This document shows, piece by piece, positions 11,302 through 43,388 of a stretch of DNA of 64,000 nt. Position 1 is the stretch's first letter. Each line of letters opens with the position of its first letter. The DNA is taken from the NCBI GenBank assembly GCA_002356635.1, contig CP023454.1, positions 2,712,501 to 2,776,500 of the forward strand, given 5' to 3'. Below the pieces are notes generated by a model. The model was given only the letters and a program-made list of their open reading frames with translations, made no database searches and was not told the DNA's origin. Made by a program: the position numbers and the translations under genes. The stretch is from Rhodobacteraceae bacterium QY30. GTDB lineage: Bacteria; Pseudomonadota; Alphaproteobacteria; Rhodobacterales; Rhodobacteraceae.

Positions 11302-11772
11302 TCATCCCCGCACTTGCAGGTCGAGCCGCTGGTGGAAACGCGTCCCGGCCTTGTCGAAGGCTTCCAGAAGGATCATCCACTTGCCTTTCGGCAGGTCGAC
11401 CGCCGCCACGTAGTCCCCGCCCTGCGGGGCAAAGACCGGCTTCTTGTCCTCGGCCGCTTCCGTGGTGCGACCGACAAGGGCGCTCAGACGCTCGACCTCG
11501 ACGGGCCGGCCGTCCTTGTCCCGGAAGCTGAGGATCAGCTGGCCGTTTTCGTAGCGATGGGTCAGCGTCCAGCCCAGGGCGCGCTGCGCGGCCAGTTCCC
11601 GGTCAAAGACCTGGGACGCCACGTAGCTGTTCTGCACCTCAAGCCCCGGGAAGGTCCGGACCGCCTTGATGGCCATGAACAGATTGACAGCGATGATCGT
11701 CGCGAAGAAGGCCACCGTGATCGCCAGAACCTTGCGGCCGGTCAGCGGTTTGCCGGGTGCGGGATTGTCCAC
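11302..11772 (-). CDS. ccoH: cbb3 oxidase assembly protein CcoH (FixH/RdxH)
   Basis: A 156-residue single-span membrane protein: a TM helix at about 14-36 (VLAITVAFFATIIAVNLFMA), then a periplasmic beta domain containing LGWTLTHRYENGQ and the C-terminal DLQVRG. FixH/CcoH contacts CcoN and CcoO during assembly. I chose the GTG at 11772, one base after the ccoG stop, which gives translational coupling; a longer reading would run back into ccoG. Confidence 0.9.
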   Translation of the reverse strand: MDNPAPGKPLTGRKVLAITVAFFATIIAVNLFMAIKAVRTFPGLEVQNSYVASQVFDRELAAQRALGWTLTHRYENGQLILSFRDKDGRPVEVERLSALVGRTTEAAEDKKPVFAPQGGDYVAAVDLPKGKWMILLEAFDKAGTRFHQRLDLQVRG

Positions 11773-11773
11773 C

Positions 11774-13219
11774 TTACTGGCCCTTTCCGTTGAAGACCGT
11801 TCCGGCGCGGACGCGGTCCTTGCTGTCAAGGTCGGTGACCCAAAGCGTGATGTCGTTGCGCTTTTCGGTCGCGCCGGGCGTTCCGGCGGGTGCCGTCAGA
11901 TAGACCCGCAGCGTGCGCATCGAATCCGGGGCGACGTTGACCGTCGAAGTATCCGCCCCTTCGATCGTCAGGTCCAGCGGCACCGGCGATTCCACCGCCA
12001 GGTCATAGGGCCGCTCCTCTCCGTGCTGGTTGCGCAGGCGCACTTCGTAGGCGTTGCGTATCGAACCGTCCGACAGGGTCACGAAGATCGGGTTGCGGAC
12101 CGGCGTGATGTTCAGGCCGAAGGGATCGCGCAGGAACAGCGCCACAACCATCGCGATGCCGATCCCGGCCCACAGCGTCGTGTACATGATGGTGCGCGGC
12201 CGGAAGATGTGCCGCCAAAGCTGCTTCGGATGCGCCCCGGCGCGTTCGGCGGCCTCATCCTTCAGGGCCATGTAGTCGATCAAGCCGCGCGGCTTGCCGA
12301 TCTTGTCCATCACGTCGTCGCAGGCGTCGATGCAAAGCGCACAGGTGATGCATTCCATCTGCTGGCCGTTGCGGATGTCGATGCCCATCGGGCAGACGTT
12401 GACGCAGGCCATGCAGTCGATGCAGTCGCCCTTGTCGCCGCCGTCGCTTTTCGTCGGCTCATCCTTCTTCAGCTTGCCACGCGGCTCACCCCGCCAGTCG
12501 CGGTAGGCGACGGTCAGCGTGTCCTCGTCCATCATCGCGGCCTGGATACGCGGCCAGGGACAGGCGTAGATGCAGATCTGTTCGCGGGCGAAACCGCCGA
12601 AGAAGAAGGTGGTCAGGGTCAGGAACGCCATTGTCGTATAGGCGATCGGGTGCGCCTGACCGGTGACCAGATCCCGAAGCAGCGTCGGCGCATCGGTGAA
12701 GTAGAACACCCAGGCCCCGCCGGTCGCCAGGCCGATCAGCAGCCAGATCGTCCATTTCACCGCGCGTTTGCGGATTTTTTCGGCATTCCACGGCTCGTTC
12801 CACAGCCTGAGTCGCGCGTTCCGGTCGCCTTCGACCCAGCGTTCGACCAGGATGAACAGGTCGGTCCAGACGGTCTGCGGGCAGGCATAGCCACACCAGA
12901 CCCGCCCCAGCGCCGAAGTGAACAGGAACAGCCCCAGCCCCGCCATGATCAGAAGGCCCGCCACGAAGTAGAATTCATGCGGCCAGATCTCGATCATGAA
13001 GAAGAAGAAGCGGCGGTTGGCCAGATCGACCAGCACCGCCTGATCGGGCATCGCGGGTCCGCGGTCCCAGCGGATCCAGGGCGTGATGTAGTAGATGCCC
13101 AGCGTGACCGCCATGATCACCCACTTCAGGTTGCGGAAGGTTCCCTTGACCCGCCGGGGAAAGACCGGCTCGCGGGCGGCATAAAGGCTTGGCGGTGGGG
13201 TGTCATGGGTAGAGGACAC
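11774..13219 (-). CDS. ccoG: Cytochrome c oxidase accessory protein CcoG (RdxB/FixG), 2x[4Fe-4S]
   Basis: A 481-residue polytopic membrane protein with two ferredoxin-type clusters, CIDCMACVNVCP and CITCALCIDACD, and two conserved Cys-Pro loops (WCGYACPQTVW and CIYACPWPRIQ). The C-terminal part carries an Ig-like FixG domain. CcoG is proposed to reduce Cu(II) for CcoI. The start is a GTG at 13219 with CAGGAG 7 bases upstream. It has its own FNR box (13276-13289), so the assembly operon can be induced separately from the oxidase. Confidence 0.93.
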   Translation of the reverse strand: MSSTHDTPPPSLYAAREPVFPRRVKGTFRNLKWVIMAVTLGIYYITPWIRWDRGPAMPDQAVLVDLANRRFFFFMIEIWPHEFYFVAGLLIMAGLGLFLFTSALGRVWCGYACPQTVWTDLFILVERWVEGDRNARLRLWNEPWNAEKIRKRAVKWTIWLLIGLATGGAWVFYFTDAPTLLRDLVTGQAHPIAYTTMAFLTLTTFFFGGFAREQICIYACPWPRIQAAMMDEDTLTVAYRDWRGEPRGKLKKDEPTKSDGGDKGDCIDCMACVNVCPMGIDIRNGQQMECITCALCIDACDDVMDKIGKPRGLIDYMALKDEAAERAGAHPKQLWRHIFRPRTIMYTTLWAGIGIAMVVALFLRDPFGLNITPVRNPIFVTLSDGSIRNAYEVRLRNQHGEERPYDLAVESPVPLDLTIEGADTSTVNVAPDSMRTLRVYLTAPAGTPGATEKRNDITLWVTDLDSKDRVRAGTVFNGKGQ

Positions 13220-13555: not shown

Positions 13556-14425
13556 TCACTCGCCACCGCCAAGGCCATGGACGTAGAACGCCGCCGAGCG
13601 GATCTGCGCTTCGGTCAGACGCCCGTTCCAGGCCGGCATGACGCCGAACCGGGCCTTGGTGACGGTTTCGGTCAGCGCCGCTTCGTCGCCGCCATAGAGC
13701 CAGATCGCATCCGTCAGGTTGGGCGCGCCCTGCGCCCGGTCACCGGTGCCGGCCTCGCCGTGGCAGGACACGCAGTTTTCCGCGAAAACCTGCGCGCCAG
13801 CGGTGGCCTCGGCCGCATCATGCGGCTGTTTGGACAGTTGCAGGACATATTGCACGACATCGCCGATCTGGGTCTTGTCCAGCAGGCCATCGGTGCCGAA
13901 GGCCGGCATCTGGGAATAGCGCGCCTCGGGGTCGGTGGTGTTGCGGATGCCGTGCAGGATGGTGGTGTGCACGTCTTCCATGGTGCCACCCCACAGCCAG
14001 TCATTGTCGACCAGCGCCGGATAGCCCTTGCCGCCGCCCCCGCCCGCGCCGTGGCATTGGGCGCAGAAGGTCTGGAACACGGCCTTGCCCGATTTCATGG
14101 CGAAGTCCGCCAGTTCCGGGTCATTCTTGATGTCGGCCAGGTTGGCGGCGGTCAGTTTCGCCTCGATCGGGGCGTTCGCGCTGGCAAAACGGTCGATCTC
14201 GGCCTGAACGTCGGCGCGGGTGCTCTGCTCCAGCACGCCGGGGGTCGCACCGGTGATCAGCGGCCAGGCCGGATAGGCGATGGTGTAGCCGATGCCCCAG
14301 ATGATGGTCAGGTAGAACGTCCAGAGCCACCAGCGCGGCATCGGGTTGTCGAATTCCTGGATGCCGTCCCAGCTATGACCGGTGGTCGAGGGATCGGCCT
14401 TCTTGGCGATGGGTTGCTTGCTCAT
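13556..14425 (-). CDS. ccoP: cbb3 oxidase dihaem cytochrome c subunit CcoP
   Basis: A 289-residue dihaem subunit that passes electrons from cytochrome c to CcoO/CcoN. It has one N-terminal TM helix (about 34-50) and two haem c sites, Cys121-Ala-Gln-Cys124-His125 and Cys218-Val-Ser-Cys221-His222. The ATG at 14425 overlaps the ccoQ stop as ATGA; the GTG two codons earlier is less likely. Confidence 0.96.
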
Positions 14426-14643
14426 TTCCACGCTTCCTTGAGTGTGGCGCCAGACGCTTCGCGCGCCGTCTCGACGCGGGCGGGCTTGTCTTCATGGCGG
14501 AAAGGGATGTTCGAGATGTCCTCGTAGGTGTTCCGGGATCCGGGCCGGAAGGCCCAGATCACGACCGCGACAAAGAACGCGAACAGGGCAAGAAGGCCCC
14601 AGCTGTCCGCGAATTGCCGGGTGATGGTATAGAGGTTGTCCAT
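14422..14643 (-). CDS. ccoQ: cbb3 oxidase subunit CcoQ
   Basis: A 73-residue small subunit. One TM helix (about 15-32, [18 protein letters not shown]) is followed by [16 protein letters not shown], the common CcoQ pattern. CcoQ stabilises CcoP in the complex. It lies 10 bases downstream of ccoO and overlaps ccoP by 4 bases. Confidence 0.94.
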
Positions 14644-14653
14644 CACGCCCCCA

Positions 14654-15403
14654 TTAGCGGCTCTTGTCGGGCTGGAAGGTCGTGAAGTCGACCATCGTGC
14701 CCAGAACCTGAAGATAGGCGACCAGCGCATCCATCTCGGACACGCCCGGCGCGTTGTCGAAATTCGACACGTTCACGTCCTTGCCGCCCTTGAACGCCGC
14801 CGCGCCGTAGCGCGTCTGCAGTTCGGTCGCATCGGCGTTGGGATCGGCTTGCGCGGCAAAGTCCGCCTTCGCCGCCGCGATCATGTCCGAAGTATAGGGC
14901 ACGCCCACCATGGCGTCCGCCTTCAGGCGGTCCTCCATGTAGGCCGTCTCGACCAGGCGGTTCTTCAGGAAGCCGTATTTCGGCATGATCGATTCCTGCA
15001 CCACCGCTTGCGGGTTGGTCAGGTGATCGACGTGCCAGGCGTCCGAATACCGGCCGCCCACGCGGGCCAGGTCCGGTCCGGTGCGCTTCGACCCCCACTG
15101 GAACGGATGGTCGTACATCGATTCCGCCGCAAGGCTGTAGTGGCCATAGCGTTCGACCTCGTCCCGCATCGGACGGATCATCTGGCTGTGGCAGGTGTAG
15201 CAGCCTTCGCGGATGTAGATGTCGCGCCCGACCAGCTCCAGCGGGGTGTAGGGGCGAACCCCCTCCACCTTCTCGATCGTGTTCTCCAGGTAGAACAGGG
15301 GTGCGATCTCGACGATGCCGCCGATGGTGACGACCAGAAGCGAACCGACAAGCAAAAGCGTCGAGTTCTTTTCAAGGATCTGGTGTTTCTCAAGGATACC
15401 CAT
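14654..15403 (-). CDS. ccoO: cbb3 oxidase monohaem cytochrome c subunit CcoO
   Basis: A 249-residue membrane-anchored cytochrome c: a TM helix at about 14-36, then a haem site Cys68-Tyr-Thr-Cys71-His72 in [14 protein letters not shown]. Length and start ([13 protein letters not shown]) are typical. It starts 12 bases after the ccoN stop. Confidence 0.97.
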
Positions 15404-15415
15404 TGCCGGTCCCCC

Positions 15416-17014
15416 TTATTCAGCCGGGATCGCGGCCGTCAGCGCGGAACGAGCCGGCTGTTTGGCAACGGTTGCCCAGAGGTTGTAGACCATGATGACA
15501 CCCCCGGCCAGGAACATGATCCCGCCCAGCGCGCGCACCACATACATCGGGAACTTGGCCGAGACGGTATCGGCGAAGGCGTTCACGAGGAAACCGTTCG
15601 CGTCGACTTCGCGCCACATCAGGCCCTCCATGATCCCGGTGACCCACATCGAGGCGGCGTAAAGCACGATCCCGATGGTGGCGAGCCAGAAGTGCCAGCT
15701 GACCAGACTCAGCGAATACAGGCGTTCCCGGCCCCAGAGCCGCGGCGTCAGGAAGTAGAGGACCCCGAAGGTGATCATGCCGTTCCAGCCCAGTGCGCCC
15801 GAATGGACGTGTCCGATGGTCCAGTCGGTGTAGTGCGACAGCGAGTTCACGGCCTTGATCGACATCATCGGGCCTTCAAAGGTCGACATGCCGTAGAAGC
15901 CGACCGACACCACCATCATGCGGATGATCGGATCGGTGCGCAGCTTGTCCCAGGCACCCGACAGCGTCATCAGGCCGTTGATCATGCCACCCCAGGACGG
16001 CATCCACAGGATGACCGAGAAGACCATGCCAAGGGTCGAGGCCCAGTCAGGCAGCGCGGTGTAGTGCAGGTGGTGCGGACCGGCCCAGATATACAGGAAG
16101 ATCAGCGCCCAGAAGTGGATGATCGACAGCTTGTAGCTGTAGACCGGGCGTTCGGCCTGCTTCGGCACGAAGTAATACATCATGCCCAGGAAGCCCGCGG
16201 TCAGGAAGAAGCCCACGGCATTGTGGCCGTACCACCACTGCGTCATGGCATCCTGAACCCCGCCCATCAGCTGCACCGACTTCGACCCGAAGATCGAGAC
16301 CGGGACGGCCAGGTTGTTGACCACATGCAGCATGGCAATGGTGATGATGAAGGACAGGTAGAACCAGTTCGCGACGTAGATGTGCGGCTCTTTCCGCTTC
16401 CACAGCGTGCCGAGGAAGGCCAGCAGGAAAGCCACCCAGACCACCGTCAGCCACAGGTCGATATGCCAGGTCGGCTCGGCGTATTCCTTGCCCTGCGATC
16501 CGCCCAGGACATAGCTGGTGGCCGCCAGGACGATGAACAGGTTGTAGCCCCAGAACACGAACCAGCCCAGGTTGCCACCCCAGAGACGCGCCGCGGTGGT
16601 CCGCTGCACGACGTAGAAGGCCGACATGATCAGCGCATTGCCCCCGAAGGCAAAGATCACCGCCGAGGTGTGGAGCGGGCGCAGACGGCCGAAGTTCAGG
16701 TAGCCTTCGGCCCATTCGAAGTTGAGCGCGGGAAATGCCAGTTGCAGCGCGATGACCACGCCGACCAGAAAGCCGATCACGCCCCAGAAGGCAGTCGCGA
16801 TGACGCCTGCCCGGACGACAGCATCGTTATATTCAGTTTGCGGCTGCGGCCGATGGTCTCCGGCGGTGCGCAACGCCCACCAGAAGGCAATGGCGGCTGC
16901 CAGCATCGCGGTCAGCGCGTTGACCTGATAGGCCAGGTCATGCGCGTAGTTGGCCGCGATCGCGGCCAGCACCGCGGTCAGACCAAGCACCGCCAGCTTG
17001 ATGTAATCCCACAT
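15416..17014 (-). CDS. ccoN: cbb3 oxidase catalytic subunit CcoN
   Basis: A 532-residue subunit I with 12 or more TM helices holding low-spin haem b and the haem b3-CuB centre. Visible signatures are [30 protein letters not shown], the CuB histidine pair in [13 protein letters not shown], and [18 protein letters not shown] near the end. It is the high-affinity terminal oxidase used at low oxygen and is transcribed as ccoNOQP. An FNR box lies about 95 bases upstream of the start. Confidence 0.97.
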
Positions 17015-32769: not shown

Positions 32770-33555
32770 TCAGGCGGCGGTGCCGTGGATGTGGCCGCAG
32801 ACCGGGCAGCCGTCGCGCCGCGACACCGCGATTTCGCGGTTTTCGCCCCAGAGCACGTCCTGAATGACCAGCCGCCCGCGCAGGCTGCGGCCCGCGCCGG
32901 TCAGTTCCTTGATCGCTTCCGCCGCCATCATCGACCCCACGATGCCCGGCAACGCGCCCATGACCCCGGCGGCGGCGCAGGTCGGCAGAAGCTCGGCCGG
33001 CGGGATAACGGGGAACAGGCAGGCCAGGCACGGCGCGCTGCGCGCGGGATCGTAAAGGGTCATCTGCCCTTCCCACTGGCTGATCGCGCCCGACAAGAGC
33101 GGCACGCCCGCCGCCACGCAGGCCGCGTTCAGCATGTGACGCGTCTGCAGGTCGTCCGTCGCGTCGATCACCAGATCCCGCCCCGGCACCAGCACGGCGG
33201 CACGCGCGGCATCCAGGCGTTCCGCAACCGGAGTGAGCGTGACGAAGGGGTTGATCCCCGCCACAGCGATCCTGGCCGATTCCACCTTTGGCATTCCGAT
33301 CCGGTCCTGCGCGTGGATCACCTGCCGCTGCAGGTTCGAGACCGAGACCATATCGTCATCGACCACGGTGATCCGGCCGACGCCGGCGGCGGCCAGATAC
33401 ATCAGCACCGGCGCCCCCAGGCCACCCGCGCCGATCACCAGCACGTTGGCGCGTTTCAGTCGGGCCTGGCCCGGCCCGCCGATCTCGCGCAGCACGATAT
33501 GGCGGGCATAGCGTTGCAGTTCGTCGTCCGAATAAAGCGGCGCCGGCGCGGTCAT
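32770..33555 (-). CDS. moeB: MoaD adenylyltransferase MoeB (ThiF/E1-like)
   Basis: A 261-residue E1-like enzyme that adenylates the C-terminal Gly of MoaD. It has the ATP-binding VIGAGGLGAPVLMYLAAAG, the R-finger region, and the zinc cysteines CLAC and CPVC. A ThiF role cannot be excluded by sequence alone, but the neighbours moaD and moaA decide for MoeB. It is the last gene of the moeA-moaA-moaD-moeB run, 21 bases after the moaD stop. Confidence 0.88.
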   Translation of the reverse strand: MTAPAPLYSDDELQRYARHIVLREIGGPGQARLKRANVLVIGAGGLGAPVLMYLAAAGVGRITVVDDDMVSVSNLQRQVIHAQDRIGMPKVESARIAVAGINPFVTLTPVAERLDAARAAVLVPGRDLVIDATDDLQTRHMLNAACVAAGVPLLSGAISQWEGQMTLYDPARSAPCLACLFPVIPPAELLPTCAAAGVMGALPGIVGSMMAAEAIKELTGAGRSLRGRLVIQDVLWGENREIAVSRRDGCPVCGHIHGTAA

Positions 33556-33576
33556 GTTCCTGGCCTCGTCTTCACG

Positions 33577-33831
33577 TCATCCCCCCGTCATGGGCGGAAA
33601 GAAGGCTACCTCGCGTACCCCCGTCAAGGGGGCGGCGAAATCGGCCAGCGACTGGTCCAGTGCCACCCGGATGGCGGTCGGATCGGCAAAGGCCGCTGCG
33701 TGGCGGGCGTCGCGCGCGGCCAGTTCGGCCACCAGGTCGGCCACGGTGGCGGCCGCCGTTTCGATCCGTTCGCGCGGCTGGTCGATGCGTTCACGCAACC
33801 AGGCGAAGTAAAGGATGTCGATCGACTGCAT
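33577..33831 (-). CDS. moaD: Molybdopterin synthase small subunit MoaD
   Basis: An 84-residue ubiquitin-like sulfur carrier ending FFPPMTGG; the terminal Gly-Gly is thiocarboxylated and donates sulfur to precursor Z. It begins 3 bases after the moaA stop. The large subunit MoaE is not in this window. Confidence 0.9.
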   Translation of the reverse strand: MQSIDILYFAWLRERIDQPRERIETAAATVADLVAELAARDARHAAAFADPTAIRVALDQSLADFAAPLTGVREVAFFPPMTGG

Positions 33832-33834
33832 GGT

Positions 33835-34893
33835 TCATCCGCCCGTGTGATTCATGCCGCGCGCCATTCCGCCAGTCGGCACACCGCGCGAATAATCGAA
33901 GTCATGGCCGCGGGGCTTGCGCGCGATGCCGTCGCGGATTGCCTGTTGCAGCGGTTCAAGATCGGGTGAGGCGCGCAGGACGCTCCGCAGGTCGGTCGCG
34001 CCCTCTTGCCCGAGGCAGGGGAACAATTCGCCGGTGCAGGTCAGCCGCACGCGGTTGCAGGTTTCGCAGAAACTGTGGGTCAGCGGCGTGATGAAACCGA
34101 TCTTCAACCCCGTTTCGGCCAGGCGGACATAGCGGGCAGGGCCGCCGGTGGTTTCAACCAGCGGGACCAGTGTGAACCGCTCGGCCAGCCGCGCGCGCAA
34201 GGCCGACAACGGCAGGAAGTGGTCCAGCCGGTCCATCATCCCCTCGTCGCCCATCGGCATCACCTCGATGAAGGTCAGGTCATGGCCCTCGCCGGTGCAC
34301 CAGTCGACCAGCGGGAACAGCTCGTCATCGGTCAGGCCCTTCAGCGCCACGGCGTTGATCTTCACTCGCAGTCCGGCGCATTTCGCGGCCGCGATCCCTT
34401 CCAGCACCGGCGACAACTGTCCCCGCCGGGTGAGGGCGGCAAAGCGGGCCGGATCCAGCGTGTCAAGCGAGACATTGACCCGACGCACCCCGCAGGCGGC
34501 CAGATCGGCGGCGTGGCGGGCCAGCTGGCTGCCATTGGTCGTCAGGGTCAGCTCCTTCAGGGCGCCGCTTTCCAGATGGCGCGTCATGGCCCGAAAGAAA
34601 CTGAGGATGTCGCGCCGCACCAGCGGTTCGCCTCCGGTAATGCGCAGCTTTGCGACCCCAAGGCCGATGAACGCCGAGCACAGCCGATCCAGTTCTTCCA
34701 GCGACAGAAGATCCTTGCGCGGCAGGAACTGCACCCGCTCGCCCATGCAATAGGAGCAGCGGAAATCGCAGCGGTCGGTCACCGAGACGCGCAGGTAACG
34801 GACGACCCGGGCGAAGCGGTCGGAAAGCAGGCCGCAAACCGGGCGGGCATGGGCGGCCTGTGTCGGGACGGGATCAAGGAACACCGGTTTCAC
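33835..34893 (-). CDS. moaA: GTP 3',8-cyclase MoaA (radical SAM)
   Basis: A 352-residue enzyme for the first step of Moco synthesis. It has an N-terminal [4Fe-4S] with [18 protein letters not shown], the C-terminal cluster cysteines in [19 protein letters not shown], and the essential C-terminal Gly-Gly. A GTG start at 34893 overlaps the moeA stop (GTGA). Confidence 0.95.
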
Positions 34894-36119
34894 CTTCCGC
34901 AGAATGGATGCCAGTCAAGACGCTGGCCGGGGATGACTTCGCCGCAGTCGGCGGGGACAACAGCCAGGCCGTCGGCTTCGGCCAGCGGGAACAGCGTTCC
35001 CGAAACGCCCTGTCCCAGCCGTTCCAGCCGCACGGGGCCGGACCCGTCCGCGCCAAGGCAGCGGACGGGAAAGACCTCCAGGCGGCCGGGACTGCGCCGC
35101 CAGGAGAATTCCGCCCGGGCGCTGGCCTGTGCGAAGGCCGTGGGCGCCCGGCCGGTCAGCCGGTCGATCTGGGCGGCGACGAACAGATGAAAGCCCACGA
35201 AGGCGGCAAAGGGATTGCCGGGCAGGCCGGTAAAGCCGGTCTGGCGGACCTTGCCGAACATCACCGGCTTTCCCGGTTTGACAGCGACGCGCCAGGCCGC
35301 AATCTCGCCGCCCGCCGCGGCCACAGCCGGCCGCAGCAGGTCAAGCCCGCCCATCGACGCGCCCCCCGAGGTGACGACCAGATCCGCCGTTTCGGCGAGT
35401 TCCGTCAAACTTTTCGCGATGCCGTCCAGATCGTCGGACAGGACACCACCGTCCACCGCCTCGGCTCCCGCGGCTTCGGCCAGCGCCAGCAGCATCGGGC
35501 GATTGGCGTCATGGATCTGGCCTTCGCCGCGCGCGCCGCGGGCCAGTTCGTCGCCCGTGGACAGGACCGCGATGCGCGGGCGGCGGACGACCGACAGCCG
35601 CGCAAGCCCGTTCGCCGCCAGAAGCCCGATGTGGTGGGGCAGGATCCGCTGTCCCTTCGCGATCAGACGCGCGCCCATCGGCTGATCGCTGCCCGCCAGC
35701 CGGACATTCTCGCCGGGTTGTGGCCGCCGCGACAGGACCACATGGCCGTCCTCCTCTCGCGTCTCCTCGACGGGCAGGACGGCATCGGCACCTTCCGGCA
35801 GCGCCGCGCCCGTGTAGATCCGCGCCGCCGTTCCCGGCCGAAGCGGAGCCGCCGCCCCTGCCCCGGCCGCAATCGTTCCAGCGACCGGCAGCCGAAGCAC
35901 CCCGGATCCGGTGGTGGAGGATGACAGCGCAAAGCCGTCCATCGCCGAGCAGGTGAAGAACGGCATCGAAGTCACCGACAGGACATCCCCGGCGGCAATC
36001 CGGCCGGAGGCGGCGGCCAGCGTCACCTCCTCGGGATCGGACAGTGGCATTACCTGCGCCAGGGCAATGTCGCGCGCGGCGTCCACGTCGATCATCGCAG
36101 GGGATGGATGCTTCTGCAT
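34890..36119 (-). CDS. moeA: Molybdopterin molybdenumtransferase MoeA
   Basis: A 409-residue enzyme inserting molybdate into adenylated molybdopterin. It shows [31 protein letters not shown] and VTSGGASMG. It starts 62 bases downstream of the torA-like stop on the same strand, so Moco synthesis and the molybdoenzyme are adjacent. An inverted repeat lies in that gap. Confidence 0.94.
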
Positions 36120-36143
36120 CGGCGGATTCCTTCAGGTAGCGGA

Positions 36144-36169
36144 ACGCGGCCCGGACACCCGGGCCGCGT
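36144..36169 (-). terminator. GC hairpin between torA and moeA
   Basis: ACGCGGCCCGG (36144-36154) pairs perfectly with CCGGGCCGCGT (36159-36169), loop ACAC. No T-run follows in the minus direction (TTCC only), so it may be an mRNA-stabilising or attenuating hairpin rather than a full terminator. Confidence 0.6.
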
Positions 36170-36181
36170 CCCCGTCTTTCG

Positions 36182-38872
36182 TCAGTTCGCCGCGGCGTCC
36201 GAGGCGTTCTTCAGCAGGAAGTCCATGACCAAAGCCGCTTCCTTGTCATCCAGACCGGCGCGCGGGAACATCGACGGCGTGATCGCCTTCCACTGAAGCT
36301 GCGTGAAGGCGCCCACGTCACGCGGACCGTGGCAGACGGTGCAACGTTCGTAGAACATCTTCTCGCCCGGGCTCATCTCGGCATAAAGCGCCTCGATCAC
36401 CGCATCCAGCCGGTCAAGTCCCAGGTCGGCATCGTCGATCGCCGCCAGTTTCATGTCGTCGATGATCGCCGGTTTCTCGTAGGCCTGGTTCGGACCCTCG
36501 GGATCCTCGCACTTGCGGATCGACGCCAGACAGGTGTTCGCCGTCGTCGCCTGGCTCAGCCCCGAGGACTTCTGCGTCGAGGTCAGGAAGTTCACCAGAC
36601 CCGAGTTGCAGCGCCCCTTGCTGTCAAGGCTCGGCCAGCAGCCTTCGTAGATCGAGATGACTCCCGGCATGATCTCGTCCGAAACGACCGCACCGGCGAT
36701 GACGGTGCCGCGATCGTTGTAGATCTCGACGATATCGCCATCGGCGATCCCGCGCTTCTCGGCATCCTCGCGGTTGATCCTGACCGGCTCGCGGCCCTGC
36801 ACCTGATACAGCGCGCGCAGCTTTTCCGAGTTCGCCATCTGGCTGTGCAGGCGATACCAGGGGTGCGGGCTGACGACGTGCAGTTGGCCTTCCTTGGCGT
36901 TGCCCAGGTATTCCGCGGGCTCCAGCCACATCGGCATGCCCGGGCAGTCCTCCAGCTTCATGTCGGCGATGGTCTCGCAGAACATCTCGATCTTGCCCGA
37001 CTTGGTGTGCAGGTGGTTCTTTTCGGGATCTTCATAGAAGGATCCGTGACGAACCCAGGCACGCGCTTCCTTCGGGGCAGGCTGAAGGGCGTAGCCTTTA
37101 TCCCAGAATTCCTCGAAGGGCGTGGTCTTGGCCGCGGTCGTGCCGTTGTAGGCCTTCTTGATGATGTCGATGTATTCCGGGTAGGCCTGATCCTCGATGT
37201 ACTGCGAACCCTTGTAGAACAGCTCGGCCAGGGCGGTGAAGATCTCGAAGTCGCTTTTGCTTTCCGCCAGCGGCTCGATCACCTTCTTCATCGCGTAGAT
37301 CTTGTCGTTCGAATAGGTGCCGCCGACCGAAATGTCGTCGCGTTCCAGCGTCGAGGACGCGGGCAGCACGATGTCGGCCCAACGGGTCGCGGCCGTCCAC
37401 CAGACGTCCTGGCTGACGATGGTCTTGACCTTGCCCAGCGCCTTGATCAGCCGGTTCGTGTCCTGCTGGTGGGACATGAAGTTGTTGCCGGCGTTGTAGA
37501 TCATGTGGACATCCGGGTATTTGCGGATGTTGCCGTTGTAGAAGACCTCGGCGCCCGGATTTTCCAGCGCCTCGGTGATGCGCGAGGCGGGGACGATGTT
37601 CTGGGTGACGAAGTTCTTGCCCTGGCTCAGACCGGCGGGCGTTGACCCACCCGATTGCGGCATGCCGCCACTGCCGTAATGCCAGCTGAAGCCGACGCCC
37701 TGCCCGGGCTTGCCGATCTTGCCGGTCAGCGCGGCGAAGTTGATGATCGCCCAGTGCGTCATCTCGCCGTGGTGGGCGCGCTGCAACGACCAGGCGCCGG
37801 CGATTTCGGTCTTGGATTTTGCCAGCAGTTCCGCCAGTTCGCGGATCTTCGCGGCGTCGATGCCGGTGATCTTGGCGGCCCATTCCGGGGTCTTGGGCGT
37901 CTTGTCATCGCCCTTGCCCTGGACATAGGCGATCCACTTGTCCGACCCGACCGTGTATTTCTTCAGGTATTTCTTGTCCTCAAGTCCCTTGTCCAGGACG
38001 TGGTAGGCCATCGCCAGGAACAGCGCCACGTCGGTGTTCGGGATGATCTTCACCCAGTCGGCGTTCAGATACTGGTCCGAGGCGGTGCGCTGCGGGTTGA
38101 TCGAGATGAATTTCGTGCCGTTGTCGCGGATCTGTTCCCAGGGACCATACATCCCGTGGTCGGCAACGGTGTATTCGATGCGGTTGTTCTTGATCGGGTC
38201 GCAGCCGACCAGAACGAAGACTTCGGTGTTGTCGCGGATGACTTCCCAGGCGGTCTGCGCCGAATAGACCTCCATGTCGCCGATGACATGAGGAAGCGAA
38301 ATCTGGCTCGCGCCGCCGGACCAGTCGCCCACGGTGTTGGTGCAGCCGCCGATCATGTTGAAGAATTTGCCCTGCAGTACGTTCGGCCGCATGATGCCCG
38401 CATGGCTCCAGCCGCCGTAGGATGTCGACAGGATGCCCTGGTTGCCGTGTTCGACGATCGTGTCGGTGATGGCCTTGGCCGTCAGCTTCAGCGCGGTATC
38501 CCAGTCGACGCGGACGAATTCCTCCTTGCCGCGCAGTTCCGGCTTCACATCGCCCGACTTCCAGCCCTCAAGGTAGGACTTGCGCACCATGGGATAGTCG
38601 ATGCGCGTCTTGTCATAGGTGCGGTCCAGGACGCCATGCAACAGCATTTCGGTCGGGCGCTGGTCCAGCTGGATCACCGGAGCGATCTCGAAGACCTTGC
38701 CGTCGCGGACCACGGCCTCGAAGGGACCATAGTGGCTGGCGTGGAAGACCCGCCCCCGGAACGAGTTCGGGTCGATGGCGGCCAGCGCGGTGCTGTTCAT
38801 CAGCCAGCCAGTCCCCAGAAGGGCGGCACCGCCCTTCAGGAACCCTCGGCGGGTAGAATTGATCAATGTCAT
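36182..38872 (-). CDS. torA: TorA-type S-/N-oxide reductase fused to a C-terminal cytochrome c domain
   Basis: A protein of 896 residues, about 50 to 70 longer than usual TorA/DorA. A Tat signal (STRRGFLKGG, Arg8-Arg9) leads into the Mo-bisMGD reductase domain. Visible are SYGGWSHAG (with the serine expected to ligate Mo), DWSGGASQIS, GCDPIKNNRIEY, and the C-terminal pterin-binding region RINREDAEKRGIADGDIVEIYNDRG. After that (about 770-890) comes an extra domain with one haem c site, Cys844-Thr-Val-Cys847-His848, and a possible axial Met868. It resembles the C-terminal monohaem domain of TorC-type cytochromes. It would reduce TMAO or DMSO in the periplasm. No torC or torD lies nearby. Substrate preference is not resolved. 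Confidence 0.88.
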   Translation of the reverse strand: MTLINSTRRGFLKGGAALLGTGWLMNSTALAAIDPNSFRGRVFHASHYGPFEAVVRDGKVFEIAPVIQLDQRPTEMLLHGVLDRTYDKTRIDYPMVRKSYLEGWKSGDVKPELRGKEEFVRVDWDTALKLTAKAITDTIVEHGNQGILSTSYGGWSHAGIMRPNVLQGKFFNMIGGCTNTVGDWSGGASQISLPHVIGDMEVYSAQTAWEVIRDNTEVFVLVGCDPIKNNRIEYTVADHGMYGPWEQIRDNGTKFISINPQRTASDQYLNADWVKIIPNTDVALFLAMAYHVLDKGLEDKKYLKKYTVGSDKWIAYVQGKGDDKTPKTPEWAAKITGIDAAKIRELAELLAKSKTEIAGAWSLQRAHHGEMTHWAIINFAALTGKIGKPGQGVGFSWHYGSGGMPQSGGSTPAGLSQGKNFVTQNIVPASRITEALENPGAEVFYNGNIRKYPDVHMIYNAGNNFMSHQQDTNRLIKALGKVKTIVSQDVWWTAATRWADIVLPASSTLERDDISVGGTYSNDKIYAMKKVIEPLAESKSDFEIFTALAELFYKGSQYIEDQAYPEYIDIIKKAYNGTTAAKTTPFEEFWDKGYALQPAPKEARAWVRHGSFYEDPEKNHLHTKSGKIEMFCETIADMKLEDCPGMPMWLEPAEYLGNAKEGQLHVVSPHPWYRLHSQMANSEKLRALYQVQGREPVRINREDAEKRGIADGDIVEIYNDRGTVIAGAVVSDEIMPGVISIYEGCWPSLDSKGRCNSGLVNFLTSTQKSSGLSQATTANTCLASIRKCEDPEGPNQAYEKPAIIDDMKLAAIDDADLGLDRLDAVIEALYAEMSPGEKMFYERCTVCHGPRDVGAFTQLQWKAITPSMFPRAGLDDKEAALVMDFLLKNASDAAAN

Positions 38873-38928
38873 GGCGGTTCTCCGTCTTGTCTGCGATTGC
38901 AAACTGATCGGATGGCGCCATTCCGACC

Positions 38929-38942
38929 TTGACGGTCATCAA
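38929..38942. promoter_or_regulatory. FNR box in the torA-torR control region
   Basis: TTGACGGTCATCAA has the same TTGAC/ATCAA half-sites as the box in front of fnrL. It is centred 63 bases upstream of the torA ATG; a -41.5 position predicts a start near 38894 on the minus strand. Anaerobic activation of torA by FnrL is inferred. Confidence 0.7.
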
Positions 38943-38957
38943 CCAAACCGGTGAAGG

Positions 38958-38977
38958 CATGTTAAGACATGTAAAGA
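38958..38977. repeat. Tandem 10-bp direct repeat, candidate TorR boxes
   Basis: CATGTTAAGA (38958-38967) is followed immediately by CATGTAAAGA (38968-38977), 9 of 10 identical. E. coli TorR binds tandem decamers; the sequence differs but the architecture agrees. The second copy runs into the torR Shine-Dalgarno (AGAGGGA), so binding could also limit torR expression. Confidence 0.55.
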
Positions 38978-38984
38978 GGGACCG

Positions 38985-39689
38985 ATGCCCCAGCACATCC
39001 TGATCGTCGAGGATGACCGCGTGACCCGGATGCGTCTGGCTGGGTATCTGCGCAGCCTTGGCTATCAGGTGACCGAGGCCGGCGATGCCGCCGCCATGCA
39101 GGAGGTGATCGACACCGACCCCCCGGAACTGCTGCTTCTGGACATCGGGCTTGAAGGCAAGGACGGCCTGACGATCACCCGCGAACAGCGCGCGCATTCG
39201 CGGGTGGGGATCATCCTGCTGACCTCGCGCGATGACCAGATCGACCGGATCGTGGGGCTGGAGATGGGTGCAGACGATTATGTGACCAAGCCCTTCGACC
39301 GGCGCGAACTGGCGGCCCGGATCAAGAACCTGCTGGCCCGCATCGCCGACATCGGCCGCAGCGCGCCGACGCTGGACGCGGTGGACGAATTCGGGCCCTG
39401 GCATTTCGACCGCATCCGCCGCCGCCTTGTCTCGGCCGCCCGGATCGAAACGCTGAGCGCGCAGGAATTCGACCTTCTGGACACCCTGACCCGCAACCCC
39501 GGCATCACCTTCGGCCGCTCTCGCCTGAGCGAGATCATCGGACGCGGCGAGATGCGGCCCGGCGACCGGTCGATCGACGTGCTGGTCGGGCGGCTGCGGC
39601 GCAAGATCGAGGCCGATCCCGCCAACCCCGACTGGATCCTGACGCGCGCCGGCGAAGGCTACTGCTTCGCCGCGGCCCCGTCCGCCTGA
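38985..39689 (+). CDS. torR: OmpR-family response regulator (TorR/DorR-like)
   Basis: A 234-residue regulator. The receiver domain has the acidic pair Asp10-Asp11, phosphoacceptor Asp53 in LLLDIGLEGKDG, and the conserved Lys in VTKPFDRRELAARI. A winged-helix DNA-binding domain (about 135-230) ends with VLVGRLRRKIEADPANPDWILTRAGEGY. It is divergent from torA and convergent with torS, overlapping the torS end by 31 bases. Together with TorS and TorT it forms a complete N-oxide signalling set. Confidence 0.85.
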   Translation: MPQHILIVEDDRVTRMRLAGYLRSLGYQVTEAGDAAAMQEVIDTDPPELLLLDIGLEGKDGLTITREQRAHSRVGIILLTSRDDQIDRIVGLEMGADDYVTKPFDRRELAARIKNLLARIADIGRSAPTLDAVDEFGPWHFDRIRRRLVSAARIETLSAQEFDLLDTLTRNPGITFGRSRLSEIIGRGEMRPGDRSIDVLVGRLRRKIEADPANPDWILTRAGEGYCFAAAPSA

Positions 39690-42427
39690 AGTCCGAGCCG
39701 CGCCGAAACCGAAGAAATCCGCGACTTGGCCGCCGCCGCCTCCGACGCCAGGTCCGCCAGCGCCGCATCGTCCCCCTTCTCGATGCGCTGCAAAAGGCCG
39801 CACAGGTCGTGCAATGCAAAGTTGCTGGCCGCCCCCTTCAGCCTGTGCGCGATGCGACGGCGGGCCTCTGAGTCGGCCGTTGCCCAAAGGTCGCGTTGCG
39901 CCACGTCCAGGTCGGAAAGGAAGGCCGCCACGATGCTGCCGACAAGCTCGGCGCCCAGATTGGCCACGTCCTCGCGCAGGGCGTCTTCCAGCGGATCGTC
40001 GCTATCGGGCGCGGGCGCAAGTGGACCGACACCCTCCAGCAGCAGGGCCAGGGCGCGCGGTGACAGCGGCTTGGTCAACACATGGTCGACACCGAAGCGG
40101 GCGCGGGTTTCCACGTCGTCGCGGACCAGATCGGCGGTGAAGATCGCCAGCCGCGCCCCCTTGCGGTCGATGGCCTGGATGACATCCTCGCCGCGCATGT
40201 CGGGCAGGTCGAGGTCGATCAGGATGGCATCGAACCGGTCCGTGGCGGCAGCCTCCAGCCCTTCGCCGCCCGACGCGGCCTCGGCCACCGAGGCGCCCAT
40301 CCGTTCCAGATAGCCGCGCGCCACCAGCCGATTGACCGGATGGTCGTCCACCACCAGAACCCGCAGCCCCGGCAGGTTCAGCCCCGGCGCGGGGGTCATG
40401 TCCTCTGCTGCAAGCGCGGCCGGATCGCCTGCCGTCAGCCGCAGGACCAGCGTGAAGGTGCTGCCCCGGCCGGGCGCGGTGCTGATCCGCAGCTCTCCGC
40501 CCATGGCGTCGGTCAGTTGCCGCACGATCGCCAGGCCCAGCCCGACCCCCGGCAGCCCCTTCCGCCGCGCCTCGGCGGTGCGGCCATACACGTCGAAGGC
40601 GTGGCGCGCCTCTTCGGCCGTCATGCCCGCGCCGGTGTCGGCCACCGAAAAGGCGATCTCGTGGACCGCCGTGTCCACGGTGTGATGCATGACGGCCAGG
40701 CGCACCTCGCCCCTTTCGGTGTATTTCACCGCGTTCGAGATCAGGTTGACCAGAACCTGACGGATGCGTCCCGCGTCACCGATCAGGTTCGCGGGCAGGT
40801 CGGCCGCGATCTGGACAACGGCGGACAGGCCCTTGGCCCCCGCCAGAACCTGAAGGTGATGCCCGACCCCCTGCGCCAGCGCCCCCGGGTCGAACGCCGC
40901 CACGATGCTTTCCCCCGGCGTTTCCTCGCTGACCGAAAAGCGGAGGATGTCCTCGGTCATCGCTTGCAGGTCCCGCGCCGAGGTCAGTGCGGTTTCCAGC
41001 CGCGTCTTGCGGGCGGGACTGACCTCATCGGCGGCCAGCAGGTCCAGCAGACCGATCACCCCATTCAGAGGGGTGCGGATCTCGTGGCTCATCCGGGCCA
41101 GGAAATGGGTCTTGGCGCGGCTCAGTTCCTCGGCCTCGGCACGGGCCACGTTGGCCAGGTTCATCTCGGCCACCACATCGGCGGTACGGGCGAGGACGGC
41201 AGATTCCAGGCTGCGGCGCAGCCTCAGAGCCTCGTCCGTGCGGCGGCGCAGCACGTTCAGCGCCTTTTCCAGCTGGCCGATCTCGTCATGGCCGCTGATC
41301 CGCATCATCTCTCCGGTCTCGCCGCGCGCCACCCGGACCATCCGGTCCGTGACGGCCCCCAGCCGCAAGACGACCTGGCGGCGCGTCCGTGCCCAGACCC
41401 AATATCCCCCGAAGACCGCCAGGACGATGACAAGGATCAGTGCCACCGTCAGGGCCATCGCCCAGTTGGCTGCGTTGGCGATGCGCTGCCGCATCTGTTC
41501 CCGCGTGGCTTCGCGGCCCCTCTGCGCCTCCTCGGCCAGCAGGGCCAGCCGGCCCTCGACCCCGGCCGAAAGGGCAAGCACCTGATCCGCCACCTGCAAC
41601 TCGTCCTGGCGCAACCGCGCCAAGCCCGAGTCCGCGAATGCCGCCAGTTCCTTTCGGGCGGCCGCATCGGACCCGGCAGAAGGCAGGAACCCCGCTCGCG
41701 CCTGCGCCAGCGACAGCGCCTCGGCCAGCCTGTCCCGCAAGGCCTGAACCTCGCTTTCGTCATGGGCTTCGGCAAGTTGCTGGACAAGGCGCGACAGGCT
41801 GGCGGTCGCCTTCGCAAGCTCGGCCAGGCGTTCGAAGGCAAAGAAATCCCGATCCGCCAGATGGTCCAGAAGCGGCCGCGGGTCATGTCCGGCGGGGACG
41901 GAATACAGTTGCCAGATGTCGGCAGTGATCCGCAACCGCGCCAGATTGGTCCCCGCCGAAATCAGCGTGCCCAGCCGCTCTCCGGCCGCTTCAAGCCGCT
42001 GTCGCTCGGTCACGGCCGACCGGGCCAGGCGCCCGGCGCGCCCGACCGCGGCAGTGAGCTGCTCGACCAGGCGCAGGGCTTCGTCCGCTTCGGCCGCGGC
42101 GGTCCGGCTGTCGCCCAGGAACCGGCGCATGTCGGTGTTGCCCGCCGCGATGTCGCCGATCACGGAATGAAGCGCCGTGGACGTGCGCGCCGCATCGCCC
42201 TCGGTCCTGGCCTGCGCCAGCTGCGTCACCAGCGCATCGGCACGGTCCACATCGCGCGCAACCTGTTCGGTCCGCTGGATGATGGCGATGCTTTCGGACA
42301 GAACCTGCCCCTGCGACGAGATGAGCAGGCGGTTGACGCCGATCGACGCGACGCCGACAACGACAGTCAGACCGGAGAGGATCATGAAGACCGACTGGAG
42401 CTGTTTGTCGAACCGTCGTGCGCGCAT
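39659..42427 (-). CDS. torS: Tripartite hybrid sensor histidine kinase (TorS-like)
   Basis: A 922-residue phosphorelay kinase. There are two TM helices (about 13-35 and 322-347) flanking a long helical periplasmic sensor (about 36-320) of the kind that docks TorT. Then come a HAMP, the DHp with His448 (SHEIRTPLN), an HATPase with VGLGLAIV, a receiver with Asp738 (LIDLDLPDM), and an Hpt with His861 (AHRLKGAAS). Signal flow would be His448 to Asp738 to His861 to TorR. Its ATG (42427-42425) shares bases with the divergent torT ATG. Confidence 0.87.
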   Translation of the reverse strand: MRARRFDKQLQSVFMILSGLTVVVGVASIGVNRLLISSQGQVLSESIAIIQRTEQVARDVDRADALVTQLAQARTEGDAARTSTALHSVIGDIAAGNTDMRRFLGDSRTAAAEADEALRLVEQLTAAVGRAGRLARSAVTERQRLEAAGERLGTLISAGTNLARLRITADIWQLYSVPAGHDPRPLLDHLADRDFFAFERLAELAKATASLSRLVQQLAEAHDESEVQALRDRLAEALSLAQARAGFLPSAGSDAAARKELAAFADSGLARLRQDELQVADQVLALSAGVEGRLALLAEEAQRGREATREQMRQRIANAANWAMALTVALILVIVLAVFGGYWVWARTRRQVVLRLGAVTDRMVRVARGETGEMMRISGHDEIGQLEKALNVLRRRTDEALRLRRSLESAVLARTADVVAEMNLANVARAEAEELSRAKTHFLARMSHEIRTPLNGVIGLLDLLAADEVSPARKTRLETALTSARDLQAMTEDILRFSVSEETPGESIVAAFDPGALAQGVGHHLQVLAGAKGLSAVVQIAADLPANLIGDAGRIRQVLVNLISNAVKYTERGEVRLAVMHHTVDTAVHEIAFSVADTGAGMTAEEARHAFDVYGRTAEARRKGLPGVGLGLAIVRQLTDAMGGELRISTAPGRGSTFTLVLRLTAGDPAALAAEDMTPAPGLNLPGLRVLVVDDHPVNRLVARGYLERMGASVAEAASGGEGLEAAATDRFDAILIDLDLPDMRGEDVIQAIDRKGARLAIFTADLVRDDVETRARFGVDHVLTKPLSPRALALLLEGVGPLAPAPDSDDPLEDALREDVANLGAELVGSIVAAFLSDLDVAQRDLWATADSEARRRIAHRLKGAASNFALHDLCGLLQRIEKGDDAALADLASEAAAAKSRISSVSARLGLQADGAAAKQ

Positions 42428-43388
42428 GAAGATTGCTTATCGCCGGGCGGTGCGTATCGCAATCATGTGTCTTGCGGCACTTTGGACGCAGCCGTCGCAG
42501 GCGGCGGATCACCTGGTCTGTGTCCTCGTCCCGCACTTCAAGGACGAATACTGGCTGAGCGTGGCCGATGGCATCGAGAAACGCGCGGCCCGGACGGGCC
42601 TGCATGCGCGGTTCTTCGAGGCGGGCGGTTACGGGGCACTGGCCAACCAGATCGGACAGATCGCGCAATGCTCGGCCCTGCATCCCCGCGCGATGCTGAT
42701 CGGGACCGTGTCCTCGGACGATCCTGCCCTTCTGGCGGCGGTGGCCGAAGCCGCAAGGCACCATCCGGTCATCGGCCTGGTGAACGAACTCCATTCCGAC
42801 GTGCTGGCGGCGCGGATCGGGGTCGACTGGCAGGACATGGGCGCGGCGCTGGGCGCGCATCTGCGGCGGCTTTATCCGGCGGGCAGCGCACCGCAGTCGG
42901 CGATCCTTCTGTCCGGTCCGCCCGAAGCGGGATGGGTGGCGCCGCTGGAAACCGGGCTGCGGCAGGGTCTGCAAGGTTCCAGCATCCACATCCGCGCCGT
43001 CTATGCCGCCGACACGGGCACGGGCGAGCAGTTGCGCCTTCTGGAACGGGCCCTTGCCGAAACGGCGGAGCCGGACCTGATCATCGGCCCGGCCCCCGCG
43101 ATCGAGGCGGCTATGGCGGTCTTTTCCGGTTCCTCCGACCGCCCCGCTCTGGTGGCGACCTACATCAGCCACAGCGTCGCGCGCGGGCTGGTCGGCGGGA
43201 AGGCGCTTGCCGCGCCCTTCGACGATCCCATCCGCCAGGGAGAACTGGCGCTGGAGGCGGCGCTGTCGCCTACGGATCCTAAGGACGCAAACCGGTTGAT
43301 CGGGCCCGCCATCACGGTGATCCAGTCCGGCGCGGACCCCGCCTTGATCCGGCTGTCCCCGGCCGATTACTTTCCCGCGCTGGACTGA
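42426..43388 (+). CDS. torT: Periplasmic substrate-binding sensor protein (TorT-like)
   Basis: A 320-residue protein. A signal peptide (MKIAYRRAVRIAIMCLAALW..., cleavage near SQAAD at about 26) precedes a Peripla_BP_4 fold beginning LVCVLVPHFKDEYWLSVADGI, with IGTVSSDDPALLAAV and LIIGPAPAIEAAM. In E. coli TorT binds TMAO and presents it to the TorS periplasmic domain. Context gives the same role here. No Shine-Dalgarno precedes the ATG, which overlaps the torS start codon on the other strand. Confidence 0.82.
   Translation: MKIAYRRAVRIAIMCLAALWTQPSQAADHLVCVLVPHFKDEYWLSVADGIEKRAARTGLHARFFEAGGYGALANQIGQIAQCSALHPRAMLIGTVSSDDPALLAAVAEAARHHPVIGLVNELHSDVLAARIGVDWQDMGAALGAHLRRLYPAGSAPQSAILLSGPPEAGWVAPLETGLRQGLQGSSIHIRAVYAADTGTGEQLRLLERALAETAEPDLIIGPAPAIEAAMAVFSGSSDRPALVATYISHSVARGLVGGKALAAPFDDPIRQGELALEAALSPTDPKDANRLIGPAITVIQSGADPALIRLSPADYFPALD

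Follow-up and report, generated by a model that had tools for sequence, protein, structure and literature searches.

A TorA-type reductase ending in a domain homologous to the fifth-haem domain of TorC marks a broad, mostly proteobacterial clade

How can a TorA-type reductase be supplied with electrons in a cell that does not encode TorC? The question is raised by a 64,000-nucleotide stretch of Rhodobacteraceae bacterium QY30 DNA (the window), in which an initial annotation had seen a reductase with its own C-terminal, TorC-like haem c domain, no torC or dorC in the flanks, and a cytochrome cy as a possible donor. The features of the locus are compiled in Table 1.

Table 1. Features of the fused torA locus and of a candidate electron donor in the window.
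Feature	Position	Strand	Basis
torA-type molybdoenzyme, 896 aa, predicted haem c domain fused at its C-terminus	36182..38872	-	ORF read, profile matches
Tat signal peptide, residues ~1-31, TRRGFLK at 7-13	38780..38872	-	sequence; its end inferred
TorA/BisC-type catalytic core, residues 45-803	36464..38740	-	TIGR00509 45-803; structural match to E. coli TorA (9h4t), Z 47.0
Linker, residues ~804-834	36371..36463	-	length near-constant across fused clade
Predicted haem c domain, TorC C-terminal homologue, residues 835-895	36188..36370	-	TIGR02162 match, alignments, model
CTVCH haem attachment site, 844-848	36329..36343	-	sequence, alignment of fused proteins
Met868, probable distal haem ligand (role inferred)	36269..36271	-	invariant in 46 fused proteins and 29 TorCC-type domains
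TorR-box-like tandem 10-bp repeat TCTTTACATG-TCTTAACATG	38958..38977	-	self-identity and cross-locus scoring
torR-like response regulator	38985..39689	+	NF008034 best match, 225.1 bits (under cut-off 275)
torS-like hybrid sensor kinase	39659..42427	-	TIGR02956 best match, 391.2 bits (under cut-off 676.5)
torT periplasmic TMAO sensor, start codon uncertain	42426..43388	+	NF008185 272.8 bits (over cut-off 200)
moeA	34890..36119	-	three MoeA Pfam domains over cut-off
moaA	33835..34893	-	TIGR02666 over cut-off
moaD-like	33577..33831	-	tblastn with Shinella plasmid moaD, 79% identity
moeB	32770..33555	-	NF004281 over cut-off
Candidate donor, c-type cytochrome resembling cy, 176 aa	27453..27980	-	PF00034 over 79-174; anchor and role inferred

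The torA-type reading frame is unbroken from its ATG at 38872 to its stop at 36182-36184. TIGR00509 matched its product with 856 bits over residues 45-803, and the fold of this core gave Z scores of 35.6-47.0 against TorA, MtsZ and DorA structures, i.e., both homology and fold place it with the Ser-ligated TorA/DorA/BisC enzymes. Ser185 occupies the alignment column of the serine that serves E. coli TorA and Cereibacter DorA as molybdenum ligand. As the scores fell outside the curated TorA equivalogs (856.2 bits versus a cut-off of 1017.55 for TIGR00509, 664.7 versus 1465 for torA TIGR02164, 708.3 versus 909 for NF011682), we hence call the protein TorA-type. The best-scoring solved sequence was R. 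sphaeroides DorA (1eu1), a member of the same family, and a Tyr aligned at the place of Tyr114 (DorA numbering). In contrast to the fused enzyme, DorA has no such tail in the alignment; in Rhodobacter it receives electrons from DorC, a separate pentahaem cytochrome. The twin-arginine motif TRRGFLK identifies the protein as a Tat substrate, with a sub-threshold Pfam TAT_signal match, and 53 of 57 complete fused frames carry [ST]RRxF[LIMVA].

We then analyzed the C-terminal tail. Its CTVCH is the sole CxxCH of the 896 residues; when the protein was shuffled 20,000 times, 51 shuffles contained any such motif. The tail matched positions 324-384 of the 387-position NCBIfam torC model TIGR02162 (E 8.4e-6). 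It scored 25.3 bits, far under the whole-protein cut-off (478.2), as is expected if only the last domain of TorC is present. The only Pfam match, Cytochrome_CBB3, stayed sub-threshold (15.7 bits versus 27). Searching PDB sequences with the tail gave short cytochrome matches (best E 0.00065, a cbb3 subunit). The tail region of the predicted model had a pLDDT of 89.9; Foldseek matched it weakly to dihaem cytochromes (best E 0.46, probability 0.87-0.96), and a VIA comparison with dihaem cytochrome 2fwt gave Z 7.5 and an rmsd of 2.2 over 59 aligned residues. C844, C847, H848, W861 and M868 were invariant among 46 fused proteins, and the corresponding C, C, H, W and M among 29 TorCC-type domains, i.e., 22 fused and seven unfused ones including E. 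coli TorC. Homology to TorC positions ~320-387, the CxxCH and the conserved Met group the tail with TorCC and TorB; with one CxxCH, and no PF03264 match in the genome, the protein is not a pentahaem TorC or DorC. We conclude that the reductase ends in a domain homologous to the fifth-haem domain of TorC, a predicted c-type cytochrome that would bind haem. A second tail-like protein was not found in the genome at E 1.

The initial annotation is confirmed as to the fusion but overstated it, as the architecture is not confined to this genome. Conservation is the strongest evidence that the fusion is genuine. Of 72 related loci taken from other genomes, 62 (25 genus names) had a TorA frame with a CxxCH 40-70 residues before its end, although this is no unbiased frequency, since one of the six search patterns sat in the tail and favoured fused copies. 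The distance from the core-end motif to the CxxCH was 45-49 residues in 61 of the 62 fused frames. Of seven genomes covered by a genus search centred on Roseobacter sp. HKCCD6576-2, two, itself included, had fused TorA. Fused copies are also found among plasmid records, namely in Shinella, Leisingera, Paracoccus, Defluviimonas and Azospirillum. In the tree, fused proteins formed one clade (support 100/97) that requires a single change. The fusion is hence characteristic of a broad clade, mostly proteobacterial, and not of one genome. A sequencing error or two joined frames, named beforehand as a possible refutation, is ruled out, since 46 proteins share invariant haem residues and the motif recurs at 62 of the 72 loci. 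An artefact is thereby refuted, and together with a vestigial or non-haem tail, for which the weak Pfam score could speak, this explanation is scarcely credible in view of the same invariant residues and the plasmid-borne copies in five genera.

Comparable parts are arranged differently elsewhere. In E. coli (torCAD; PMC11727998), the catalytic fold is shared, TorC ends in the homologous haem domain, and torT, torS and torR relatives are likewise neighbours of the fused gene. Here, by contrast, the haem domain lies within the catalytic subunit, in a genome without the quinol dehydrogenase TorCN and without TorD. Campylobacter TorA-TorB (Cj0264-Cj0265) also uses a TorC C-domain without the tetrahaem part, and a bc1-type supply is proposed for it (PMC6195509); its TorB, however, is a separate protein, and the organism uses menaquinone. 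The long-branched Campylobacter TorA that we tested (L131) was not placed within the fused clade. Among the closest lineages outside the clade are Deferribacterota (L124-L126, L134), where the monohaem domain is encoded by an ORF of its own that immediately follows torA; this gene order equals the domain order of the fusion, but there are two ORFs, and the two genomes tested gave no cytochrome c1 match.

As to the donor, we searched the complete genome (3.55 Mb, two contigs, 100% complete). The absence of torC from the flanks was confirmed and holds genome-wide: PF03264, the NapC/NirT/TorC N-part, had no match at E 0.001. A torC elsewhere was rejected, as TIGR02162 moreover matched the fused tail only. 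Nor was a TorD found; the sole PF02613 match sits between narGH and narI-like genes and is hence narJ. The expected cytochrome cy is present in the window as a cy-like PF00034 protein, and the genome moreover encodes cytochrome c1 of a bc1 complex. Among 50 fused genomes, full-length TorC was missing in 39 and present in 11; 22 had a NapC/NirT-type protein without full TorC, and 17, the present genome included, had no NapC-type match (tallies made by eye). Of 44 fused loci flanked by 8 kb or more on each side, none had a TorC N-part nearby. Cytochrome c1 was encoded in 49 of the 50 fused genomes; bc1 is common in these bacterial groups, and its co-occurrence is therefore weak evidence.

Probably, then, the protein is a periplasmic reductase of TMAO (or another S- or N-oxide) whose haem tail is fed by cytochrome c2 or cy from bc1, with no need for TorC. 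C. jejuni offers a parallel, as its growth on TMAO reportedly requires a bc1-type Qcr complex, with TorB proposed as the link (PMC6195509). The same source calls the transfer from ubiquinol (+90 mV) to TMAO (+130 mV) via bc1 thermodynamically unfavourable when it has to work against a normal proton-motive force (~180 mV). The menaquinol argument made for C. jejuni is not transferable, because no menaquinone marker exceeded its cut-off here (MenD model, 60.4 versus 244.2 bits; PF02621, no match); by these two markers, the genome is ubiquinone-only. Both points favour an explanation in which electrons enter by the same tail but come directly from an unrecognized quinol dehydrogenase or a periplasmic dehydrogenase, not from the bc1/cytochrome c pool, and so do the 22 genomes with a NapC/NirT-type protein and no full TorC. 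In the 17 genomes without a NapC-type match, however, such a donor must be of another family, and we regard this supply as rather unlikely. An unrelated partner gene would escape notice, since the neighbour survey beside torA covered Tor, MoeA and MoaA relatives only.

The adjoining torT-torS-torR genes and the absence of TorD are points that the initial annotation had overlooked. Of the 44 well-flanked loci, 39 had TorT and 38 had TorS next to the fused gene. The tandem repeat lies upstream of both torA and torR, 85 bp from the ATG of the former and 7 bp from the start of the latter, with a self-identity of 9/10 equalled by one of 2000 shuffles; the repeat finder missed it, and it was spotted by eye and tested afterwards. 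Scoring against a consensus read off alphaproteobacterial loci, and thus partly circular on them, 26 of 58 loci reached 13/20, several of these 13s being equalled by 7-13% of the locus's own 60 shuffles. Alphaproteobacterial TorT-bearing loci reached 13 in 25 of 28 cases (exceptions L081, L088, L102), and L112 scored 14 despite its TorT-less genome; under this alphaproteobacterial consensus, no beta- or gammaproteobacterial locus reached 13. A sigma-70 promoter and terminator scan of 38700-39100 found nothing.

These neighbours bear on two further explanations. The enzyme might work mainly in the oxidizing direction, taking electrons from TMA or DMS to cytochrome c. The high potentials of c-type cytochromes make them partners that favour oxidation. 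Against this redox reasoning, with TMAO/TMA at +130 mV (PMC6195509), stand the homologues of TorT/TorS/TorR next to the fused gene, a system that in E. coli answers to TMAO, the substrate of a reductase (PMC10845959); we consider an oxidase highly improbable. The tail could also be mainly a regulatory reporter, its apo form binding TorS and shutting torA off as apo-TorC does in E. coli, where apo-TorC is described to bind TorSN and lower TorR phosphorylation (PMC11727998, PMC10845959). The frequent TorT and TorS neighbours would suit this role; surface plasmon resonance, in contrast, showed equal binding of holo- and apo-TorC to TorSN (PMC11727998), and TorT gave no match in nine of the 50 fused genomes (L054, L055, L070, L072, L075, L079, L096, L111, L112), each of which nevertheless retains the CxxCH-bearing tail. 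We thus consider a tail kept mainly as a reporter improbable. A combination, i.e., electron entry plus a haem-loading checkpoint in which the unhaemed apo-tail binds TorS and represses torA, is somewhat less remote, though still doubtful. If it held, the terminal enzyme would report its own maturation, and TorT-less lineages (Paracoccus, Pararhodobacter, Shimia, Labrenzia) would keep the electron job only.

For the preferred reading, a reductase fed from bc1 through c2 or cy, we picture the following course. The monohaem domain that ends TorC, or a free-standing TorB, would have been turned into the C-terminal domain of the catalytic subunit. TorT with bound TMAO would signal through TorS to TorR, which may switch torA on via the tandem decamer box. 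The enzyme would fold with bis-MGD in the cytoplasm and be exported by Tat; haem c would be attached in the periplasm at Cys844, Cys847 and His848, with Met868 as likely sixth ligand. On its linker of about 30 residues, the haem domain could dock at the substrate funnel and pass electrons to molybdenum, the tether standing in for docking by the tetrahaem TorCN domain of E. coli. There, TorCC is thought to reduce TorA and is reported to bind it poorly without TorCN (PMC11727998). For E. coli TorCC, a haem-Mo distance of 17 A has been modelled. The haem domain would be recharged by small c-type cytochromes, i.e., c2 or membrane-anchored cy, themselves fed by the bc1 complex, and TorC would hence not be needed. 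Regulation by TorR, haem occupancy, docking, donor identity and TMAO as main substrate are what we infer.

Enzymes of this kind are probably already known from Roseobacter denitrificans biochemistry. Arata et al. are said to have purified in 1992 a TMAO reductase from this organism with haem c and Mo cofactor in ~90 kDa subunits, and reportedly found cytochrome c2 to be its direct donor. The fused gene probably now supplies the gene behind this older haem-c TMAO reductase. The present analysis adds the architecture of the gene, the single origin of the fusion and a setting without torC; among the matches listed in a search of titles and abstract starts of open-licence PMC articles, there was no published TorA-cytochrome c fusion. 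The five best plasmid-borne copies are annotated merely as 'molybdopterin-dependent oxidoreductase', and a 130-species survey describes alpha- and betaproteobacterial 'torD' loci of the TorD-fdh clade without detectable torAC (PMC4464133); surveys keyed to torC or torD could therefore overlook respiration with fused TorA.

With the fused tail, the electron-entry domain of TMAO respiration is seen in three arrangements, the other two being the end of TorC and the free TorB, and the fusion offers torC-less proteobacteria a route to TMAO reduction. It makes ubiquinone plus bc1 as driver of TMAO respiration directly testable. If the proposed route is true, a ubiquinone-only, TorC-free cell would carry out cytochrome c-linked TMAO respiration against textbook energetics.

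The initial annotation had assigned a TorC-like C-terminal haem c tail with a CTVCH motif to the TorA-type reductase, and a domain search bore this out, i.e., residues 835–895 align with positions 324–384 of the 387 in the TorC model (TIGR02162), which is its very end. Any CxxCH arose in 51 of 20,000 shuffles of the protein, and the C, C, H, W and M residues are invariant in 29 aligned haem domains (22 fused tails and seven non-fused domains of TorC or TorB type). Because the motif is this rare in shuffles and these residues do not vary, chance is a poor explanation for it.

Features of the fused TorA-type reductase
Feature	Position	Strand	Basis
Fused TorA-type reductase, 896 aa	36182–38872	minus	ORF; Tat-type leader, TorA/BisC core and tail
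TorA/BisC core	residues 45–803 of fused TorA		TIGR00509
CxxCH of fused TorA tail	residues 844–848		one copy in whole protein

AlphaFold2 prediction with 46 fused sequences gave a mean pLDDT of 83.4 and a pTM of 0.84. The modelled core superimposes on E. coli TorA (9h4t; Z 47.0, rmsd 2.0, 755 residues) and also aligns with DorA. The tail modelled alone (28 sequences) reached a pLDDT of 89.9; its best structural matches, Rhodobacter and Shewanella dihaem cytochromes c, were middling (Z 6.2–7.5), followed by sulfite dehydrogenase chain B (2blf; Z 5.9, rmsd 6.2), and Foldseek returned no E below 0.46. At residue 152 (window 38417–38419) the aligned fused proteins have a Tyr in the place of the DorA active-site Tyr114, where E. 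coli TorA is gapped; the substrate range may differ from that of TorA.

We scanned a one-genome-per-species collection with the window TorA and obtained 72 loci, close relatives only. The survey of homologues revealed a TorA frame with CxxCH 40–70 residues before its end in 62 of them, a proportion biased towards fused copies since one of the six scan peptide patterns sits in the tail. The haem motif was CTVCH in 38 fused loci, CTLCH in 21, CSLCH in two and CSVCH in one. Not fused by this rule were L119, L123, L124, L125, L126, L128, L131, L132, L133 and L134. L123 (Shewanella marina, 8911–11626) has the tail, with its fused torA split over two frames, the result of a misassembly or else of a disrupted gene. 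Record titles of fused loci carry 25 genus names (counted by eye, some being MAG labels), including Gemmobacter, Paracoccus, Ruegeria, Sulfitobacter, Pseudovibrio, Azospirillum, Aromatoleum, Thauera, Zoogloea, Acidovorax and Oleiphilus. Two counts that suffer less from this bias, both including the own genome, gave a close tail match (E < 1e-19) in 15 of 394 sampled genomes of the family, and a TorA-like match in 19 of 61 relatives, covering the tail in three. The one same-genus genome searched (G001) had neither a TorA-like nor a close tail match. Plasmid records of Shinella, Leisingera, Paracoccus, Defluviimonas and Azospirillum carry full-length fused copies, as does a 2.1-Mb Photobacterium record. 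The L096 and L119 contigs belong to Bacteroidota-labelled MAGs, with TorA within or beside an otherwise proteobacterial fused clade; these bins may be contaminated.

A midpoint-rooted TorA core tree was drawn from 53 rows selected among the sequences gathered, of which 33 are fused and two are the same gene under different labels. The fused proteins fall into a single group there with support 100/97, requiring one label change. Closest to it is unfused L119 from a Flavobacteriales-labelled MAG, for which no ORF with CxxCH is listed in the flanking 3 kb; next outside is a group of four Deferribacterota rows and one Thermodesulfobacteriota row (L132). The Deferribacterota loci L124–L126 and L134 have a monohaem frame of 102–185 residues directly after torA, which is absent from L132. 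The Campylobacter protein, whose monohaem gene lies upstream of torA, falls on a long branch of unsure placement. A torA-monohaem ORF order is what read-through fusion, an inferred step, would need. Separately, L128 (Vannielia MAG, 6969–12127) has classical torC, torD and torA, then an extra ORF of the TorC C-terminal monohaem type directly after torA.

Among the 44 of 62 fused loci with at least 8 kb on each side, TorT was found in 39, TorS in 38, TorR in 39, TorD in two and the tetrahaem N-part of TorC in none. Both TorD-bearing loci are from Thauera. L104 has a second, classical torA with torD beyond a torTSR common to both torA genes, and one sensor may control two reductases that draw on different electron donors; L098 has a torD match alone, at the contig edge. 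On a Shinella plasmid (L144, CP069302.1 228251–248926), one block reads torT-torS-torR-torA(fused)-moeA-moaA-moaD-moeB-moaC-DUF2478-mog. Its first eight genes recur in identical order at window 32770–43388, whereas the last three have no match in the window. The block looks like a portable cassette for TMAO respiration and molybdenum cofactor.

The genome-wide set comprised 50 fused genomes, i.e., 46 of 63 fused loci (the 62 plus L123), picked mostly as isolates, and G000, G150, G235 and G326; the searches also covered four genomes with split or unfused genes. Of the 50, 11 have full-length TorC, 22 have a NapC/NirT-type match but not the full TorC, and 17, the own genome included, have no TorC/NapC-type match (TIGR02162, E 0.001; tallied by eye). 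TorT was present in 41 (E 1e-15). Cytochrome c1 was present in 49, all except a Saprospiraceae-labelled MAG. The absence of torC noted initially for the flanks extends to the own genome (GCA_002356635.1), which has cytochrome c1 and no PF03264 match. It also contains no TorD, the single PF02613 match being narJ; PF02621 is absent and MenD-model matches fall far under the cut-off. Genes for a cbb3 oxidase (ccoP-, ccoO- and ccoN-like) lie at window 13559–17014.

The neighbouring TorT exceeds its curated cut-off; TorS and TorR are best matches, yet stay under theirs. The region between torA and torR holds TCTTTACATG-TCTTAACATG, 85 bp upstream of the torA start and 7 bp upstream of that of torR, with 9/10 self-identity at a 10-bp period. 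Shuffling the 120-bp stretch 2000 times reached this value once. Tandem scores were at least 13 of 20 in 25 of 28 alphaproteobacterial TorT-bearing fused loci, a partly circular result as the box was read off the same loci; in Rhodobacterales-type loci the tandem mostly lies 82–105 bp upstream of where the match begins. In genomes without TorT, L070, L072, L075 and L079 scored 10–12, and L112 scored 14. The E. coli TorR box, CTGTTCATAT, occurs as three perfect copies in the E. coli torR–torC interval. TorR probably binds the tandem repeat.

E. coli apo-TorC is described to bind TorS and to reduce tor expression (PMC11727998, PMC10845959), and by analogy a fused tail beside torS could keep such a role. 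We argue against TorS regulation as the main reason for keeping the tail: nine of the 50 fused genomes are without a TorT match and still keep it, and in SPR holo-TorC and apo-TorC are reported to bind TorSN alike (PMC11727998).

For electron transfer, the C-terminal monohaem domain of E. coli TorC is held to hand electrons to TorA, being a weak binder alone that is docked by the tetrahaem N-part; a cross-link-guided model places its haem 17 Å from Mo, in the funnel (PMC11727998). A C. jejuni qcrABC deletion mutant no longer grows on TMAO, and the link proposed there is TorB, a free-standing protein (PMC6195509). Beside these, the covalent tether would be a natural third solution, building the docking into the enzyme, and the donor could then be a mobile cytochrome. 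We consider it fairly probable that electrons enter fused TorA through its tail, from the cytochrome c pool. Energetics are the weak point of this route, because ubiquinol-driven TMAO reduction via the Q-cycle is called unfavourable (PMC6195509). A reduced quinone pool or low proton-motive force could resolve the objection, as could trimethylamine removal, a role of the enzyme in disposing of excess electrons, or a non-bc1 donor.

Among the papers listed in searches of the open-licence PMC literature, a scope outside which many relevant journals lie, none concerned a TorA-cytochrome c fusion. Arata, Shimizu and Takamiya (1992) reportedly purified a Roseobacter denitrificans TMAO reductase whose ~90-kDa subunits carry haem c and the Mo cofactor, its haem said to lie near +200 mV and its reductant to be cytochrome c2. 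Anaerobic growth of R. denitrificans on TMAO is mentioned with reference to Arata 1988 (PMC3141670). If this account of the 1992 work is right, this kind of enzyme is old, and what is added here is its gene architecture, single origin, spread and torC-free, torTSR-linked setting.
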